Source: Desulfosporosinus sp. (GTDB taxonomy: Bacteria; Campylobacterota; Campylobacteria; Campylobacterales; Arcobacteraceae). Taken from it: a stretch of 44,235 nt of DNA. This document shows, in pieces, positions 10,617-44,235 of this stretch (position 1 is its first letter; each line of letters begins with the position of its first letter). The stretch is from contig DYPS01000010.1 in the NCBI GenBank assembly GCA_020719775.1, forward strand, positions 1 through 44,235, read 5' to 3'. A program made the position numbers and the translations under genes. Below the pieces are notes generated by a model that saw nothing but the letters and a program-made list of their open reading frames with translations, did not search any database and was not told the DNA's origin.

Positions 10617-11168
10617 ATGGCAGCTAGATTATTTGATAGATATAAAAGTGAAATCAAACCTGTTTTAGAAGGGGAATTCCAACAAAATAAAATGTTAACT
10701 CCAGCTTTAGAAAAAGTAACTATTTCTGTAGGTGCTGGTGAAGCTATGAAAGATACAAAATTAATGCAAAATATTAATGATACTATCTCTTTAATAGCTG
10801 GTCAAAAAGCGGTTACTATTGTTTCTAAAAAATCTGTTGCTGGATTTAAAGTAAGAGAAGGTATGCCTGTAGGAGTAAAAGTTACACTTAGAGGTGAAAG
10901 AATGTATCATTTTATGGACAAACTTTGTACAATTGCACTTCCAAGAGTAAAAGACTTTAGAGGAGTTGATAGAACAGGTTTTGATGGTCAAGGTAATTTT
11001 AACTTTGGTCTTAATGAGCAATTGATGTTCCCAGAAGTTGAATATGATAATATCATTAAAACTCATGGAATGAATATTTCTATAACTACTACAACAAATA
11101 GTGATGAGCAATCTTTTAGATTATTAGAGCTTCTTGGTGTACCGTTTACTAAAGGGGGAAGAGCATAA
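10617..11168 (+). CDS. rplE: 50S ribosomal protein L5
   Basis: L5 (183 residues) binds 5S rRNA and contacts S13 across the subunit interface. The segments [29 protein letters not shown] and [14 protein letters not shown] are conserved in the family. I chose the ATG at 10617 rather than the GTG at 10608, because AAGGTG stands at the right distance and [10 protein letters not shown] fits the family start. Confidence 0.97.
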
Positions 11169-11353
11169 TGGCAAAGAAAGCAATGATATTAAAAGCAGCT
11201 AAACCTGCTAAGTTTTCTACTAGAGCTTACACAAGATGTTCAATTTGTGGAAGACCGCACTCTGTATATAGAGATTTTGGTCTATGTAGAGTATGTTTAA
11301 GAAAAATGGCTAATGAGGGTTTAATTCCTGGTATTAGAAAAGCTAGTTGGTAA
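11168..11353 (+). CDS. rpsN: 30S ribosomal protein S14, zinc-binding (type Z)
   Basis: S14 sits in the 30S head and this form is only 61 residues long. Two CxxC pairs, CSICG and CRVC, form a zinc site, so this is the ancestral zinc-dependent type rather than the longer zinc-free paralogue. The start overlaps the rplE stop by one base, and a 28-base gap separates it from rpsH. Confidence 0.97.
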
Positions 11354-11381
11354 TAAAAAATAAAAGAAAGAGGATAAGCCC

Positions 11382-11780
11382 ATGATGAATGATTTAATCG
11401 CAGACGCAATAACTCGAATCAGAAATGCTGCTATGAGAAAGTTAGAGTTCACTACTCTAATTCACTCAAACACAGTTGAAGCAGTTATGAATGTTTTAAA
11501 GGTAAAAAACTATATTGAAAGTTACAGTGTAGAAGATATTGGAAATAATAAAAAGTCTTTAAAAGTAGTTTTAAAGTATGATGATAACGAAAAAAGTGTT
11601 ATCAACGAAGTAAAAAGAGAATCTAAACCGGGAAGAAGAATGTATAAAGCTGCTTCTGAGTTAAAAAACTTTAAAAATGGATATGGAACAATCGTAGTTT
11701 CTACTAACAAAGGTGTAATAAGCAATGATGAGGCTTATAAACTAAATGTTGGTGGCGAAGTACTTTGTTCTATATGGTAA
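11382..11780 (+). CDS. rpsH: 30S ribosomal protein S8
   Basis: S8 (about 131 residues) binds the central domain of 16S rRNA and in E. coli represses the spc operon. [20 protein letters not shown] and [20 protein letters not shown] mark the family. Two adjacent ATG codons at 11382 and 11385 could start it; AGAGGATAAG upstream suits either. Confidence 0.96.
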
Positions 11781-11791
11781 GGAGCTGAACT

Positions 11792-12328
11792 ATGTCAAGA
11801 ATTGGAAAATTACCTATTGCAATACCTGCTGGTGTTGAAGTTTCTGTAAATGGTTCAGTTGTAGTTATCAAAAAAGGTAGCAATGTTGTTGAGTTAGATA
11901 CGCATAATAGAGTTGGAATTGATGTTGCTGAAGGTAATGTTGTTTTTTCTTTAAAAGGTGAAGAAGCTCAAGACAAAGCTTTCTGGGGAACTTATAGAGC
12001 TTTAACTGCAAATGCTATTTCTGGTTTAGTTACAGGATTTAGTAGATCTTTAGAAATTAACGGTGTTGGTTATAAGGCTGCTGTAAAAGGTGACATTTTA
12101 GAATTACAACTTGGATATTCTCATCCAATTAATTTCAACATACCTACTGGTATTGAAATAAGTGTTGAAAAGAATATCATCAATGTAAAAGGTAGTAGCA
12201 AACAACAAGTTGGTCAAGTTGCTGCAATAATTAGAGGCTTTAGAAAACCAGAACCATACAAAGGTAAAGGTGTTAAATATTCTGATGAGACAATCATTAG
12301 AAAAGCCGGAAAAACTTCTAAAAAGTAA
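11792..12328 (+). CDS. rplF: 50S ribosomal protein L6
   Basis: L6 (178 residues) lies near the sarcin-ricin loop and factor-binding site. The family start MSRIGKLPI, the internal duplicated fold with GVGYKA, and the C-terminal [15 protein letters not shown] are all seen. AAGGAGCTGAACT provides the ribosome site. Confidence 0.97.
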
Positions 12329-12338
12329 GGGTTAAATT

Positions 12339-12698
12339 ATGAGTAGAATTAAAGACTTAGCAAAAAAGAATGCATTAAGATTAAGAAGAAAGAGAAGAAT
12401 TAGAGGTAAAATTGATGGGTCAGTTGCAAAACCAAGACTAACAGTTTTTAAATCTAACAAATTCTTCTATGCTCAAGCTATTGATGATGTTACAGGTATT
12501 ACACTTGCAGCTGTTGATAGTAGAGTTATGAAACTTAGTGTGAATAAAGAGAATGTTGTTAAAGTTGGAGCTGTTATGGCTGAAAACTTAAAGGCTAAAA
12601 ATATCGAAACTGTTGTATTTGATAAAAATGGTTACTTGTATCATGGTGTAATAGCGAGCTTCGCTGATGCACTAAGAGACAATGGAATCAGAGTATAA
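12339..12698 (+). CDS. rplR: 50S ribosomal protein L18
   Basis: L18 (119 residues) binds 5S rRNA with L5. The arginine-rich N-terminal tail, [14 protein letters not shown], and the [15 protein letters not shown] and [19 protein letters not shown] stretches are characteristic. It is preceded by AAGGGTTAAATT. Confidence 0.97.
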
Positions 12699-39096: not shown

Positions 39097-39125
39097 AAAA
39101 ATAGAGCTTTGGCTCTATTTTTTTA
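39096..39125. terminator. Bidirectional terminator shared by rpoC and the HD gene
   Basis: AAAAAATAGAGC (39096-39107) pairs with GCTCTATTTTTT (39112-39123) around TTTG. It has T-runs on both strands and overlaps the stop codons of rpoC and of the converging HD-domain gene, so it ends both transcripts. Confidence 0.85.
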
Positions 39126-40760
39126 AAAACACTCACTTAAAATCTTCCTAATATCCTCAATCATCTCTTTTTCTAAAATAGTTTTATTTGAATATAAATA
39201 AAAAGGTACAGTATTTAAAATAGATTTTTTAAGTCGTTTTCTAATTGTAGATATTAAATCAACTTTGATAGGATTTTTGCCATCAAAAAGTAAAAAGTTC
39301 GCTTCAATTCCTATGCTTAAAGAGACAACTTGAAAAGTAAAAAACCTATCTTCTTTTTCATATTTGACACAAAAATTTTCTAATTTATGCTGTAATTTCT
39401 TATGGGTATGATCTGAAACATAGCCAAAACTTTCTCTAAATTTATATCTCTCAATTTCACTAAAGTCCAAAATATTATAGAGTTCGTTAAGGTTTCTCCA
39501 AGTTGCTTGATAAAATCTTTTTCCAAATAAAACTTCTTCAAATGATTTTAAATATTTTATATCATTTAAATTTTTAGAAGATTTATTTTTTATTTTGAAA
39601 TATTCTTTTTTAAAAAGGGTAATAAGCCAATTTTCATCAAGTTGTGTAATTATATCAAGTCTTTTTTCTGAATCTTGTTCATCTAAAAATTTCCATAACA
39701 TTGAAATTGAATCTGTAACCTCGGAAATTTTATTTTCATCGAAATATTTTTTTGCAAGGTATAAGATAACATTTTCTAAGTGTGTATCGGTTGCTGTTAT
39801 TTTATGATTAAAAATAATTTTTTTGTAAAGATTAAATCTCATCTCTAACATATGCTCAATATCTATAATTTCACTATCTAAAAAAGAGAGAATAAAGTTA
39901 TTATTGTATTCAATTATAACCGATTGTTTGGCTATTCTTATAAAATCAACTGGACCACCAATATAACCACTAGCAAGCATATCACGATTAATATAATCCA
40001 ACCTATCAGCATCAATTGTTCCATCAATAAATGAGTGCAATACTTTATAATTAAAATATTGATCTTTTTTTTCATTTAGGATATTTTGAATAATTAAATA
40101 TAAGAGTTGTAAATAAGGATCATTCTGACAATTAAGTTCATAGGTAAAAAGAAGCTTGATTAGTTTATAACCTATTGCTTCATGTAAAACTTTTGATTCA
40201 TTTTTTGTACTCTTTTCATAAAAATTTAAAAATATTTGTTCTTCATTAGTTAGTATTTTTTTCCTTTTTAGCATGATGTAAATATTTTCCATTGCATATT
40301 CTACTTGATGTGAAAATGGAAAATGTCCTAAATCATGGAGTAGTCCCGCTAATCTTATTGCTTGAAGAATGATAAGATATACAGATTTACTTGAATTAGA
40401 TTTTAGTGGAATCATAAATTCAAAGAGTGCTTGATCTTCGTAAATATCAGTGTTTTTAAGTGTAATATCAATTTTATTTTTACTTATTATCTCTTCAATT
40501 GAGGATTTTAAACTCTTCAAGAAGTGATTCTTTGTTTCTTCTGTTGCGTTTAACATACTATTTTTAACCATATGTGCTGCTATATGCATAGTTCCTAAAC
40601 TATGGATATAGCGTTTTGTATTTATAGATGGATAAGCAAAATATGCTAAAGCATTTTGTGTGATAAAAAGAAGACGATTAACAATTTTTGTTTGTAAAAT
40701 TCTATCTTCAATCTCACTACATTCAATATGTTTATATATGGTATCATTAATAAATTTCAT
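39123..40760 (-). CDS. HD-domain phosphohydrolase (COG1078, dNTPase/SAMHD1-like)
   Basis: The 545-residue protein has the SAMHD1/dGTPase-type HD arrangement: RYIHSLGTMHI with His53, LLHDLGHFPFSH with His142-Asp143, and DADRLDYINRD with Asp252. Relatives hydrolyse dNTPs or other nucleotides, but this group is mostly uncharacterised. The C-terminal half (after about 300) is less conserved. Its ATG directly follows the stop of the PIN-PhoH gene, with no gap, so the two are co-transcribed and probably translationally coupled. Confidence 0.8.
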   Translation of the reverse strand: MKFINDTIYKHIECSEIEDRILQTKIVNRLLFITQNALAYFAYPSINTKRYIHSLGTMHIAAHMVKNSMLNATEETKNHFLKSLKSSIEEIISKNKIDITLKNTDIYEDQALFEFMIPLKSNSSKSVYLIILQAIRLAGLLHDLGHFPFSHQVEYAMENIYIMLKRKKILTNEEQIFLNFYEKSTKNESKVLHEAIGYKLIKLLFTYELNCQNDPYLQLLYLIIQNILNEKKDQYFNYKVLHSFIDGTIDADRLDYINRDMLASGYIGGPVDFIRIAKQSVIIEYNNNFILSFLDSEIIDIEHMLEMRFNLYKKIIFNHKITATDTHLENVILYLAKKYFDENKISEVTDSISMLWKFLDEQDSEKRLDIITQLDENWLITLFKKEYFKIKNKSSKNLNDIKYLKSFEEVLFGKRFYQATWRNLNELYNILDFSEIERYKFRESFGYVSDHTHKKLQHKLENFCVKYEKEDRFFTFQVVSLSIGIEANFLLFDGKNPIKVDLISTIRKRLKKSILNTVPFYLYSNKTILEKEMIEDIRKILSECF

Positions 40761-42143
40761 TTATCTTCGTTTATTTTCAAAGATTCGTTCAGTGAATTCA
40801 GCAAATCTTCCTCTCACAGCTTTTGTAAGTTCAATCGCAAACATTTTAAGCTCAGGATGTTCAAATCTTGTTTGTTTTAAAAGTGTTGTTAATCCGTTAT
40901 TAAATCTGTTAAGGTAAAGATTATCGATTTGTCTATTGGAACCGATAACGATAGCCATACAACTCTCATCAAGTCTTGAAAGGATGAGTTGGGTTGTATT
41001 TTCACTACTATTTTGCCACTCATCAAGGATAACAATAGCACCACTTAGTGTTCGCCCCCTTGCTTCTCCTGGCCATAATGTTTCAATATTGTATTTTTCC
41101 ATCAACTCTGCTGTTTTCGCTTTTATCGATTCTTGTTGATCAATATTTTGAGAATTTTTGAGTTTTTTCTTTGCGATAAATTCCAAAGTATCATAAAGGG
41201 CCATATTATAAATTCTAAATTTTTCATCATTTCCAGATAAAAATCCAACCTCCGCACCTTTATCAAGTGACTCAATAGAGTTTCTTACATAGACTATTTT
41301 TTCATAAGAACCTTTTTCAATCAATCGCATAGCAGCAGCGACGCTTAGAAGTGTTTTTCCACTACCAGCTTTCGCATCTATAACTAATAAGTTGTACATA
41401 TTGGATAGCATTGCACTTAAGAGAAATTTTTGTTTGAGATTTGCAGGGCGAAGAGCTAAAGGATTAAAGATAGCATCATCTATAATCTCTATTTTTTGAT
41501 TAACGATGATTCCATAAGTAGAATTTCCATCATCACTAACAAACTCATAAGAGAAATTTTCATTTTGGTAATGTGGGTCATAATCATGAATTGATTTTCC
41601 ATCTAAGCCATTGAAATAGATGGAGTTTAAAGCGATGGTTTTTATAAATTCAAATTCAGGGATATCAGATCTATCTTCTTTGAGTGTTTCTGTTTTGATA
41701 TTTTTAAAGAGAGCAAAAGTTCTTGCATAGATATCAATAGAGATAAAGGTAACATCCATTTTCTCATAGTATTCTACAGCAACACTTGCAACTTCAATGA
41801 TTCGTTTATCATTACTTTCTGCGATGTTATGAGCCAACATCTCACTTTCATATCGCTCTTTTGAGATGATATGAATCCTAATATTTTCATAAGAGAGTTT
41901 GACTATTTTAAACTCTTTTTTAATGATAATATCATCCACGGCTGCTTTTGCTAAAAGCCTTGCAAATTGTCTTGATTGGTATCCTAGTTCATCGTGTAAT
42001 TTTTTTTTATCTTCAAGTTCAACTAAAACAGTTTCTGGAATAACTACAATATTAGAACCATTATCAGAAAGATTAAAAACATTTTGAATATTTTGTAATA
42101 CGATATTTGTATCAATAACATAAACTTTTTCTTTTGTATGCAT
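40761..42143 (-). CDS. PIN-PhoH fusion protein (RNase plus ATPase)
   Basis: Residues 1-145 form a PIN-like RNase domain: Asp11 in VIDTN, acidic residues in VLVELEDKK, Asp112 in ESNDKRIIEVA and Asp137 in FISID fit the catalytic pocket. Residues from about 225 form a PhoH-type ATPase with Walker A AKAGSGKT (257-264) and Walker B GAIVILDEWQN. Related PIN-PhoH proteins act as RNA helicase/nucleases, so RNA turnover is likely. AAAGGAAAATA precedes the ATG. It is divergent from the U32 gene and runs into the HD gene. Confidence 0.9.
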   Translation of the reverse strand: MHTKEKVYVIDTNIVLQNIQNVFNLSDNGSNIVVIPETVLVELEDKKKLHDELGYQSRQFARLLAKAAVDDIIIKKEFKIVKLSYENIRIHIISKERYESEMLAHNIAESNDKRIIEVASVAVEYYEKMDVTFISIDIYARTFALFKNIKTETLKEDRSDIPEFEFIKTIALNSIYFNGLDGKSIHDYDPHYQNENFSYEFVSDDGNSTYGIIVNQKIEIIDDAIFNPLALRPANLKQKFLLSAMLSNMYNLLVIDAKAGSGKTLLSVAAAMRLIEKGSYEKIVYVRNSIESLDKGAEVGFLSGNDEKFRIYNMALYDTLEFIAKKKLKNSQNIDQQESIKAKTAELMEKYNIETLWPGEARGRTLSGAIVILDEWQNSSENTTQLILSRLDESCMAIVIGSNRQIDNLYLNRFNNGLTTLLKQTRFEHPELKMFAIELTKAVRGRFAEFTERIFENKRR

Positions 42144-42279: not shown

Positions 42280-43560
42280 ATGAAAAAAGTAGAATTATTA
42301 TCTCCAGCTGGAAATTTAGAAAAATTAAAAATAGCTTTTGCTTATGGAGCAGATGCAGTGTATGGTGGAGTGAGCCATTTTAGTCTTAGAATTCGAAGTG
42401 GAAAAGAGTTTACCGTAGAAACATTTAAAGATGGGATTGACTATGCCCATAGCTTAGGAAAAAAAGTTTATGTAACTATCAATGGGTTCCCTTTTAACTC
42501 ACAGATTGAACTTCTTAAAAATCATATCAAAACGATGGCTGAATTGAATCCAGATGCCCTTATTGTAGCAACTCCAGGTGTTGTTGGACTTTGTAGAGAG
42601 ATAGCTCCACATATCCCTATCCATCTTTCAACTCAAGCAAATGTTATGAACTATCTTGATGCAAAAGTCTATTATGATATGGGAGTTCGTCGAATTATTG
42701 CAGCAAGGGAGATAAGTCTTAGAGATGTGGAAGAGATTAAAAAAAGATTGCCAGATCTTGAGATAGAGATATTTGTACATGGAAGTATGTGCTTTGCTTA
42801 TAGTGGAAGATGTCTTGTGAGTGCGGTGCAAATGGGAAGAGTTCCAAATAGGGGAAGTTGTGCGAATGATTGTCGGTTTGAATACACTTTGTATGCTGGA
42901 AATGAAAATCACGGGACACTTTTTAGACTTGAAGAACAACCAGAAATTGGTACATATATCTTCAATGCAAAAGATATGAATTTAGCAAGTCATGTAGATG
43001 AGATTTTAGCAAGTGGGGCTGTTGATAGTATTAAAATAGAAGGGCGAACAAAATCACCTTATTATGCAGCTATTACGGCTTACACTTATAGAATGGCTAT
43101 TGATGATTTTTATGCTGGAAAATTTGAGGCACAAAAATACCAAAATGAACTTAAAACGACTAAAAATCGTGGGTTTACAGATGCTTATTTGGTGCATAAA
43201 CCATTTGAAAAACAAGGAACTGAAAATCATGATTATACGATGAGCAAAGGTGCTTTTGAGGTGAGTGGACTTGTAATGGCTGATGGGGAACATTTCCTTT
43301 GTAAATACAAAACTTACTTAAATGAAGAGGTTGAGATATTTCATCCACTAAACACAACTATTGATGAAGTAGATAATGAGATAGGAACTATTTATAAAAA
43401 AGAAGATGGAAAATATTACATTAAATTTAAAAAGATAATTACTGAATCTGGAAAAGAACTTGAATCGGTACACAGTGGAAATGTTAACCCAATTAAACTT
43501 CCTACGAAGCTACCATATTTAACTATTTTTAGAATTGAGACAGAAGATTTTGTAGATTAG
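42280..43560 (+). CDS. Peptidase U32 family protein, TrhP (YegQ)-like tRNA hydroxylation protein
   Basis: The 426-residue protein carries the U32 signature EIFVHGSMC (163-171) and four conserved cysteines, Cys171, Cys178, Cys194 and Cys198, which suggest metal or cluster binding. N-terminal VELLSPAGNLEKLKIAFAYGADAVYGG is the start of the TIM-like barrel. In E. coli the U32 member TrhP makes 5-hydroxyuridine at tRNA position 34; other members are called collagenases. The length and single-barrel layout favour TrhP. It stands alone, eight bases before the restriction gene. Confidence 0.8.
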   Translation: MKKVELLSPAGNLEKLKIAFAYGADAVYGGVSHFSLRIRSGKEFTVETFKDGIDYAHSLGKKVYVTINGFPFNSQIELLKNHIKTMAELNPDALIVATPGVVGLCREIAPHIPIHLSTQANVMNYLDAKVYYDMGVRRIIAAREISLRDVEEIKKRLPDLEIEIFVHGSMCFAYSGRCLVSAVQMGRVPNRGSCANDCRFEYTLYAGNENHGTLFRLEEQPEIGTYIFNAKDMNLASHVDEILASGAVDSIKIEGRTKSPYYAAITAYTYRMAIDDFYAGKFEAQKYQNELKTTKNRGFTDAYLVHKPFEKQGTENHDYTMSKGAFEVSGLVMADGEHFLCKYKTYLNEEVEIFHPLNTTIDEVDNEIGTIYKKEDGKYYIKFKKIITESGKELESVHSGNVNPIKLPTKLPYLTIFRIETEDFVD

Positions 43561-43568
43561 AGATTGAA

Positions 43569-44235
43569 ATGTCTAGTATTTTTCAATCATCAATCTTAAG
43601 AAGCTTTCCACAAGATGAAAGTAAAATAGCTCAAAGATGGGCTTCTTATCAAGATTATATAACCAAAATTGAGTTTATCAAATCTGTCAAAGAGGAGAAA
43701 TATCAAGATGGATTTCTCAAAGATATCTTTGAAAACTGTTTGGGTTACACACTTGATAGCTCAAACCCTCAAAATTTCAATCTTGAAAGAGAAAAGAAAA
43801 ATGAAACAGACGGGAAAAAAGCCGATGGTGTTATCATTTTAAACTCCGAAGTGGTTGGAGTCATCGAACTCAAAGACCAAAAAACCAAAAATCTTGACCA
43901 AATAGAAGCCCAAGCATTTAACTATCATCTCTCGCATAGCAAAAGTAAATATATCATCATCTCAAATTTTGATGAGTTACGATTTTATATTGATAAGAAA
44001 ACTGCTTATGAGAAATTTAGCCTTTTTGGTTTGAGTTATGATGAGTTTAAAAAACTCCATCTACTCCTTAGTTTTGAGAGTATCAAAGAGGATATTCCAC
44101 TCAAACTCAAAGAGAAATCTTCCAATTTTGAAGCTGAGATAAGTAAACAACTCTACAAAGATTTTAGTGCATTTAGAACTCATCTTTTTGAAAATATTGT
44201 CAAAAACAATGACCAAATAGACAAATCAACACTTC
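43569..44235 (+). CDS. N-terminal part of a probable type IIG (Eco57I-like) restriction-modification enzyme, cut by the window edge
   Basis: The first 222 residues hold a PD-(D/E)XK nuclease core: Asp86 in KADGVII, Glu100 and Lys102 in GVIELKD, then QIEAQAFNYH, a QxxxY-like element. Next come IIISNFDELRFY and a helical segment leading to the expected methyltransferase domain. This is the layout of the nuclease end of single-chain type IIG enzymes. It continues past the window, so the methylase and target-recognition parts cannot be seen. Codons ending in C (ATC, CTC, TCC, GAC) are much commoner than in neighbours, a sign of transfer. There is no strong ribosome site. Confidence 0.75.
   Translation, partial: MSSIFQSSILRSFPQDESKIAQRWASYQDYITKIEFIKSVKEEKYQDGFLKDIFENCLGYTLDSSNPQNFNLEREKKNETDGKKADGVIILNSEVVGVIELKDQKTKNLDQIEAQAFNYHLSHSKSKYIIISNFDELRFYIDKKTAYEKFSLFGLSYDEFKKLHLLLSFESIKEDIPLKLKEKSSNFEAEISKQLYKDFSAFRTHLFENIVKNNDQIDKSTL

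Follow-up and report, generated by a model that had tools for sequence, protein, structure and literature searches.

A contig of an Arcobacteraceae genome ends inside a probable Type IIG restriction gene inserted beside a U32 peptidase gene

The stretch of DNA analysed here (the window) is 44,235 bases long and comes from an Arcobacteraceae genome assembled as 2,854,032 bases in 228 contigs. At its right end an open frame runs on the plus strand from an ATG at 43569 to the last base, 44235, with no stop codon within the window; the ATG lies 8 bases downstream of the stop codon (43558-43560) of a U32 peptidase gene. The window spans contig C9 from end to end (44235 bases), so that its edge coincides with the contig edge; the frame is therefore truncated by the assembly and not by a stop. 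A first-pass annotation of this DNA had described a PD-(D/E)XK nuclease core directly after a core gene, and this was borne out both by the position of the ATG and by the motif residues, which are invariant in all rows of the alignment described below. The features of the locus are as follows.

42280..43560, plus strand: U32 peptidase gene (Pfam PF01136, 6.7e-77), the left neighbour, at which the likeness of the sister genomes to the window stops
43569..44235, plus strand: 5' part of the Type IIG gene, first 222 codons (PADLOC, relatives, contig edge)
43686..43737, plus strand: stretch with a 90% identical copy (a Type IIG remnant) after the U32 stop in sister genome G002
43692..43730, plus strand: conserved helix E42-E43...F54 of the nuclease domain (alignment and model)
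43824..43826, plus strand: D86, first acidic residue of the PD-(D/E)XK motif (53/53 rows)
43866..43874, plus strand: E100-L101-K102, the (D/E)XK part of the motif (53/53 rows)

The 222 residues encoded by the frame were compared with domain and structure collections. The PADLOC model REase_MTase_IIG (PDLC03609) matches residues 4-222 at 6.1e-44; only 222 of some 1000 residues are available from the gene, and in a relative, L006, the best stretch of the same model covers 1-707 (3e-179). The Pfam family MmeI_N was matched at 7.8e-6 with a score of 26.8 bits, which is below the curated cut-off of 27, and the gene is therefore not assigned to MmeI_N; relatives of the gene also fall below this cut-off (L006 19.7, L002 22.4, L010 22.9). 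Nothing was matched in NCBIfam up to 0.01. A sequence search of solved structures returned only one repeat protein (CAP REPEAT), with a whole-sequence E-value of 0.00023 and no single stretch passing, and a search of the same structures with a profile (A1) returned one chain at 0.65. The BREX protein PglX was also considered and was rejected; the cut-off of the BREX-1 PglX family of NCBIfam is 500, which neither L006 (141.3) nor L002 (126.1) reaches, and the 222 residues are unmatched.

Related sequences were found at 59 loci in public genome contigs, with a highest identity of 86%. Frames were read for 53 of these (L002-L054), of which 35 have a stop codon and more than 800 codons and 34 a stop codon and more than 900; a typical full-length relative has about 920-1060 codons. 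An alignment of the nuclease region contains 53 rows, made up of 52 loci and the window, L054 with its frame of under 200 residues being left out. D86-x13-E100-L-K102 and K84-A85 are identical in every row, and E42, E43, Q46, F49 and F54 are likewise invariant. Further along, DPACGSG and NPPY, which are motifs of DNA methylases, are present in all 34 full-length relatives tested. The domains Eco57I, MmeI_Mtase and TaqI_C score above cut-off in both L002 and L006, and the methylase part of L006 resembles solved methylases, among them, weakly, MmeI (5hr4, 3.1e-4). Mean pairwise identity, taken over 40-residue blocks in L006 numbering, is 0.57-0.83 up to residue 520, 0.43 at 521-560 and 0.13-0.29 over 561-880, and rises again to 0.30-0.52 from there to the end; as would be expected, the drop at 561-880 fits a putative variable recognition domain. 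The window gene is most likely an ordinary Type IIG member of a widespread Campylobacterota family. At E 1e-20 the head of the gene has matches in 3 of the 8 genomes from the genus, its own included, and in 25 of the 104 from the taxonomic family; at 1e-10 it has matches in 61 of the 397 from the class.

An AlphaFold model of the 222 residues, made from a 23-row alignment, has a pLDDT of 90.4 and places a helix at 42-55. The top rows in VIA-align were DrdV (Z 11.6, rmsd 2.8, 133 aligned) and BpuSI (Z 10.8, rmsd 3.6, 142 aligned), followed by HsdR proteins (3h1t, Z 10.7); unrelated mitoribosome rows lie at Z 8.9 and below. Foldseek E-values were weak, with a best value of 5.6e-3. The N-terminal nuclease domain of DrdV and BpuSI thus appears, in the model, to share its fold with the window protein, at 12-16% identity in the structure alignments. 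The likeness to MmeI lies in the MmeI-type methylase domains found in the relatives. A further single-gene Type IIG system from the same bacterial class is Cj0031/CjeFV of Campylobacter jejuni, which is described as having a conserved frame with one hypervariable, presumed recognition region, 1243 residues and, in strain NCTC11168, a phase-variable polyG tract (PMC4889913). Its length and polyG tract, as given there, set it apart from the window gene, and the likeness between the two does not imply a common subfamily.

The rest of the gene was sought in the window's own assembly. A search with the whole of L006 found nothing past the 222 codons, and nothing was found with the back three quarters of L002, a search without a control of its own. 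That the gene is Type IIG, as the first-pass annotation had proposed, is upheld by the PADLOC match and by the methylase motifs of the full-length relatives, its own methylase part being absent from the assembly. The same assembly holds two matches to Eco57I (PF07669) in contig C50 (G000:C50 14693-16267), in separate frames of 250 and 283 residues; these are perhaps the pieces of another, broken restriction gene.

The far side of the gap appears to lie on contig C190. Alignments of the window to the sister genomes stop at about 43537-43561. In four of the seven sisters (G003, G004, G006 and G007) the very next gene after U32 encodes 1146-1148 residues, and purE comes after it in G003, G007 and G006, the contig piece of G004 showing none; in G005 and G001 purE comes immediately after U32, and G002 has an insert at that place. 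The window's own 1146-residue gene, with MFS, acyltransferase and AMP-binding domains, begins at base 128 of C190, and this contig continues from it to purE, the latter recognised by eye from its likeness to sister frames. C9 and C190 are inferred to be neighbours. C190 opens with the codons IVEGN-stop, 127 bases ahead of the start of the 1146-residue gene. The pattern I[VI]EG, with no more than four residues after it, forms the end of 19 of the 35 long stop-terminated relatives (16/35 end otherwise), and IVEGx-stop has a total of two occurrences in 367,990 bases of DNA of the genus, both strands included, a set that includes C190 and one complete Type IIG gene. Going by these codons, the start of C190 fits the C-terminus of the Type IIG family, and the gap most likely holds the body of the Type IIG gene with no defence island behind it. 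The suggestion that a defence island might lie past the edge was not upheld, as C190 runs from IVEGN-stop straight to the 1146-residue gene and purE; at the equivalent site of G002 there are at least three defence-type genes.

The reading preferred here, to which a probability of about 0.9 is given, is that a single-gene Type IIG enzyme has its 5' end at 43569-44235 and is inserted between the U32 gene and the MFS-acyltransferase-AMP-binding gene of this Arcobacteraceae genome. It is considered an insert because the U32 gene directly adjoins the first gene of C190 in four of the seven sisters; an intact Type IIG gene at the U32 site was seen in none of the seven. Going by the relatives, the missing middle would comprise a spacer, an N6-adenine methylase carrying NPPY, and a target-recognition domain of the TaqI type. 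Past the 222 codons, only codons fitting the last five of the gene have been seen, on C190. Type IIG enzymes serve in anti-phage defence, and, to judge from the relatives' sequences, the one protein would methylate a short DNA site and cut unmethylated (phage) DNA at a distance. The gene is halted by the end of a contig and not by biology; taken alone, it adds a further example to the Type IIG genes.

In G003, G007, G002 and G006 the U32 gene shows 95-97% identity, and the Type IIG head is 86% identical in G007 and 84% in G006, where it lies on contigs other than that of U32. These identities and separate locations agree with a presumed insertion at the U32 site rather than inheritance there. 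In a tree of the heads (up to 230 residues, 53 rows) no well-supported group includes the window, which is placed with L002 and L010 at a weak support of 89/66. At loci L002-L060 neither the U32 gene nor the MFS gene was matched at 1e-10 in the flanking DNA available, which at some loci is short on one side. Plasmid and phage carriers were both tried and rejected; 30 of 72,556 plasmid records match, each with under 60% identity at its best place, and 1 of 50,697 phage records matches, at 27.7%. No close relative was thus found in these two collections.

The codon use of the frame was compared with that of 30 other ORFs of the window of at least 150 residues, one of them shortened at its 5' end to lessen overlap. 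NNC/(NNC+NNT) is 0.336 in the Type IIG frame against 0.131 pooled over the 30, in line with the earlier observation that C-ending codons are commoner here than elsewhere in the window; this value exceeds that of every one of the 30 ORFs (highest 0.239) and of all 278 overlapping 222-codon blocks (highest 0.295). When amino-acid make-up is allowed for, 43 C-ending codons are observed against 17.6 expected (z 6.6). The runner-up is a PhoH/PIN gene at 40761-42143 with z 4.9, and the Type IIG frame is therefore not the sole unusual ORF. Its GC content of 0.312 is ordinary; the departure is confined to the third position.

A C-ending excess over the neighbouring genes is, however, usual for the front part of the gene in this family. 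It is present over residues 1-222 in 45 of 50 relatives, 3 of the 53 loci having been dropped from this comparison for too little neighbouring DNA, and over residues 223-530 in 40 of 42; in the recognition part only 4 of 32 show an excess and 28 of 32 a deficit. The boundary is shared with the fall in protein identity described above. Over the whole gene the median excess is +0.046, positive in 25 of 32, so that codon use probably becomes normal in part once the whole gene is included. Furthermore, the codon use of the head tracks that of the host (r 0.86, slope 0.96, intercept +0.11, n=50). Since the excess in the front part is the rule in the family while the recognition part is in deficit, it is weak evidence for recent transfer; being limited to the conserved front of Type IIG genes it puts no date stamp on a transfer. 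The sister sites that lack the gene speak for transfer more strongly than the codon excess does. The proposal of recent acquisition therefore stands as regards the insert, which is absent between U32 and the next gene in four of the seven sisters, but the codons, which had been taken as the sign of its recency, do not date it.

Remnants of Type IIG genes were found at several other places, beginning with the U32 site itself. In G002 a stretch of 52 bases with 90% identity to window 43686-43737 adjoins the U32 stop, and the genes after it encode a C5-cytosine methylase (PF00145, 3.4e-89) and a nuclease of the Eco47II type (PF09553, 8.8e-88); after this pair come some 50 codons from the tail of a Type IIG gene, more genes including a DUF1016/YhcG nuclease, and then the MFS-type gene. 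The pair (locus L102, G002:C8, about 10634-12686) thus has Type IIG remnants on both flanks. It recurs in L010, with 84% identity over 1840 bases, between a Type IIG head (1-210) and tail (876-996); L010 is a record titled Candidatus Thiovulum stygium. At L058 (2201-3813) head 1-65 and tail 958-980 enclose a PD-Lambda-1 gene (PADLOC, 2.2e-176), and L057 (7995-9541) has the stretch of head and PD-Lambda-1 in common with it (85% over 1508 bases), the tail not being found. At L183 (1518-3838) head 1-68 is followed by a frame of 132 residues without a PADLOC match and then a PD-Lambda-1 gene (1.3e-154), and again no tail was found.

In all, 13 such remnants are counted: L010, L102, L056, L057, L058, L059, L060, L135, L136, L160, L161, L183 and L184. 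A defence gene adjoins the remnant, or is one small frame off, in five (L010, L102, L057, L058, L183), three of which retain both ends; these are not five independent events, because L010 and L102 share an insert, as do L057 and L058. L060, L135 and L136 resemble internal deletions without an insert, and L161 is probably alike; the heads of L135 and L161 were identified by eye in translations only. The neighbours scanned at L056 and L184 had no PADLOC match. At L059 PADLOC names a candidate, PDC-S04 (2.2e-42), some 0.9 kb beyond the remnant, in a scan that did not take in the gene nearest to it, nor L160 and L060. The count is that of an uneven survey, with further short-frame loci (for example L167 and L177) outside it; also kept apart from the 13 were the frameshift-split L036, L054/L094 and L087, L049 with a transposase after its frame, and L055, L137, L138 and L162, which lie near contig ends.

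These remnants raise an alternative for the window itself, that it carries only a Type IIG head whose middle was deleted or swapped for another defence cassette, as in some relatives. The 13 examples, five of them with a defence gene close by, give this some weight, as does the fact that G002 has such a locus at the same U32 site and that L010, a tree neighbour of the window at weak support, is itself a remnant. Nevertheless it is judged unlikely: the window frame stays open and resembles the family as far as codon 222, where the heads of the remnants stop at codon 210 or earlier with the exception of L060, which keeps an additional piece (270-346) besides its head; a search of the window's own assembly did not find the Eco47II-type nuclease that G002 carries; and C190 begins with codons fitting the end of the gene and its stop, though remnants may retain tails. 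Those same codons, as fitting the end of the Type IIG family, and the continuation into a methylase of the 34 full-length relatives tested make it very improbable that the frame is instead a lone nuclease or a fragment of a Type I HsdR, for which there are the closeness of HsdR folds to the model and a weak match of the 222 residues to HSDR_N_2 (0.0023, under the cut-off).

An origin for the codon excess in recent transfer from a host richer in C-ending codons, for example a relative of Sulfurimonas or Sulfurovum, is a fair minority possibility, though not the favoured one. The excess of the window over its host, 0.205, is larger than the 0.106 that the fit to 50 relatives predicts for a host at 0.131; many relatives in such hosts reach 0.4-0.6, and one Sulfurimonas sequence is 83% identical. 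Against this, the nearest sequences are those within the same genus (G007 and G006), head codon use follows the host with an excess over neighbours as the rule, and the window belongs to no well-supported group of the tree.

At the U32 site of G002, as in other Type IIG genes, one defence gene stands in the place of another. It is tentatively proposed, as a lead and not a result and with the odds rather against it, that Type IIG genes act as exchange sockets in Campylobacterota: the front (about 1-520) and the tail would serve as arms, the middle would be swapped, and cassettes would move between genera with flanking remnants. What is swapped could be the recognition domain alone or a whole defence cassette, such as the Eco47II-type methylase-nuclease pair or PD-Lambda-1. 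A comparable case is described for Helicobacter pylori, where hrgA occupies the place of hpyIIIR (PMC4687069). As in the present loci a restriction gene is missing and another gene is there instead; unlike that case as described, Type IIG remnants here flank or precede a different defence gene, and do so in more than one genus. No account of Type IIG remnants flanking other defence genes was among the matches listed from what is mostly open-access literature, which is therefore no proof.

Two minor observations were made. Of 53 frames, 14 are cut off by the end of their contig, where a crude model would give about 9 (P 0.03), and among contigs of at least 10 kb (relatives L003-L051) 9 of 41 end inside the Type IIG gene against 3.2 expected; that contig ends fall in Type IIG genes above expectation is suggestive only. 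Between rpoC and U32 the window also carries an HD-domain and a PIN-PhoH gene (39123-42143), and in G007, G006, G004 and G001 the matching DNA skips from the end of rpoC to just ahead of U32. This pair may be mobile too, because its PIN-PhoH member has the second highest excess of C-ending codons in the window.
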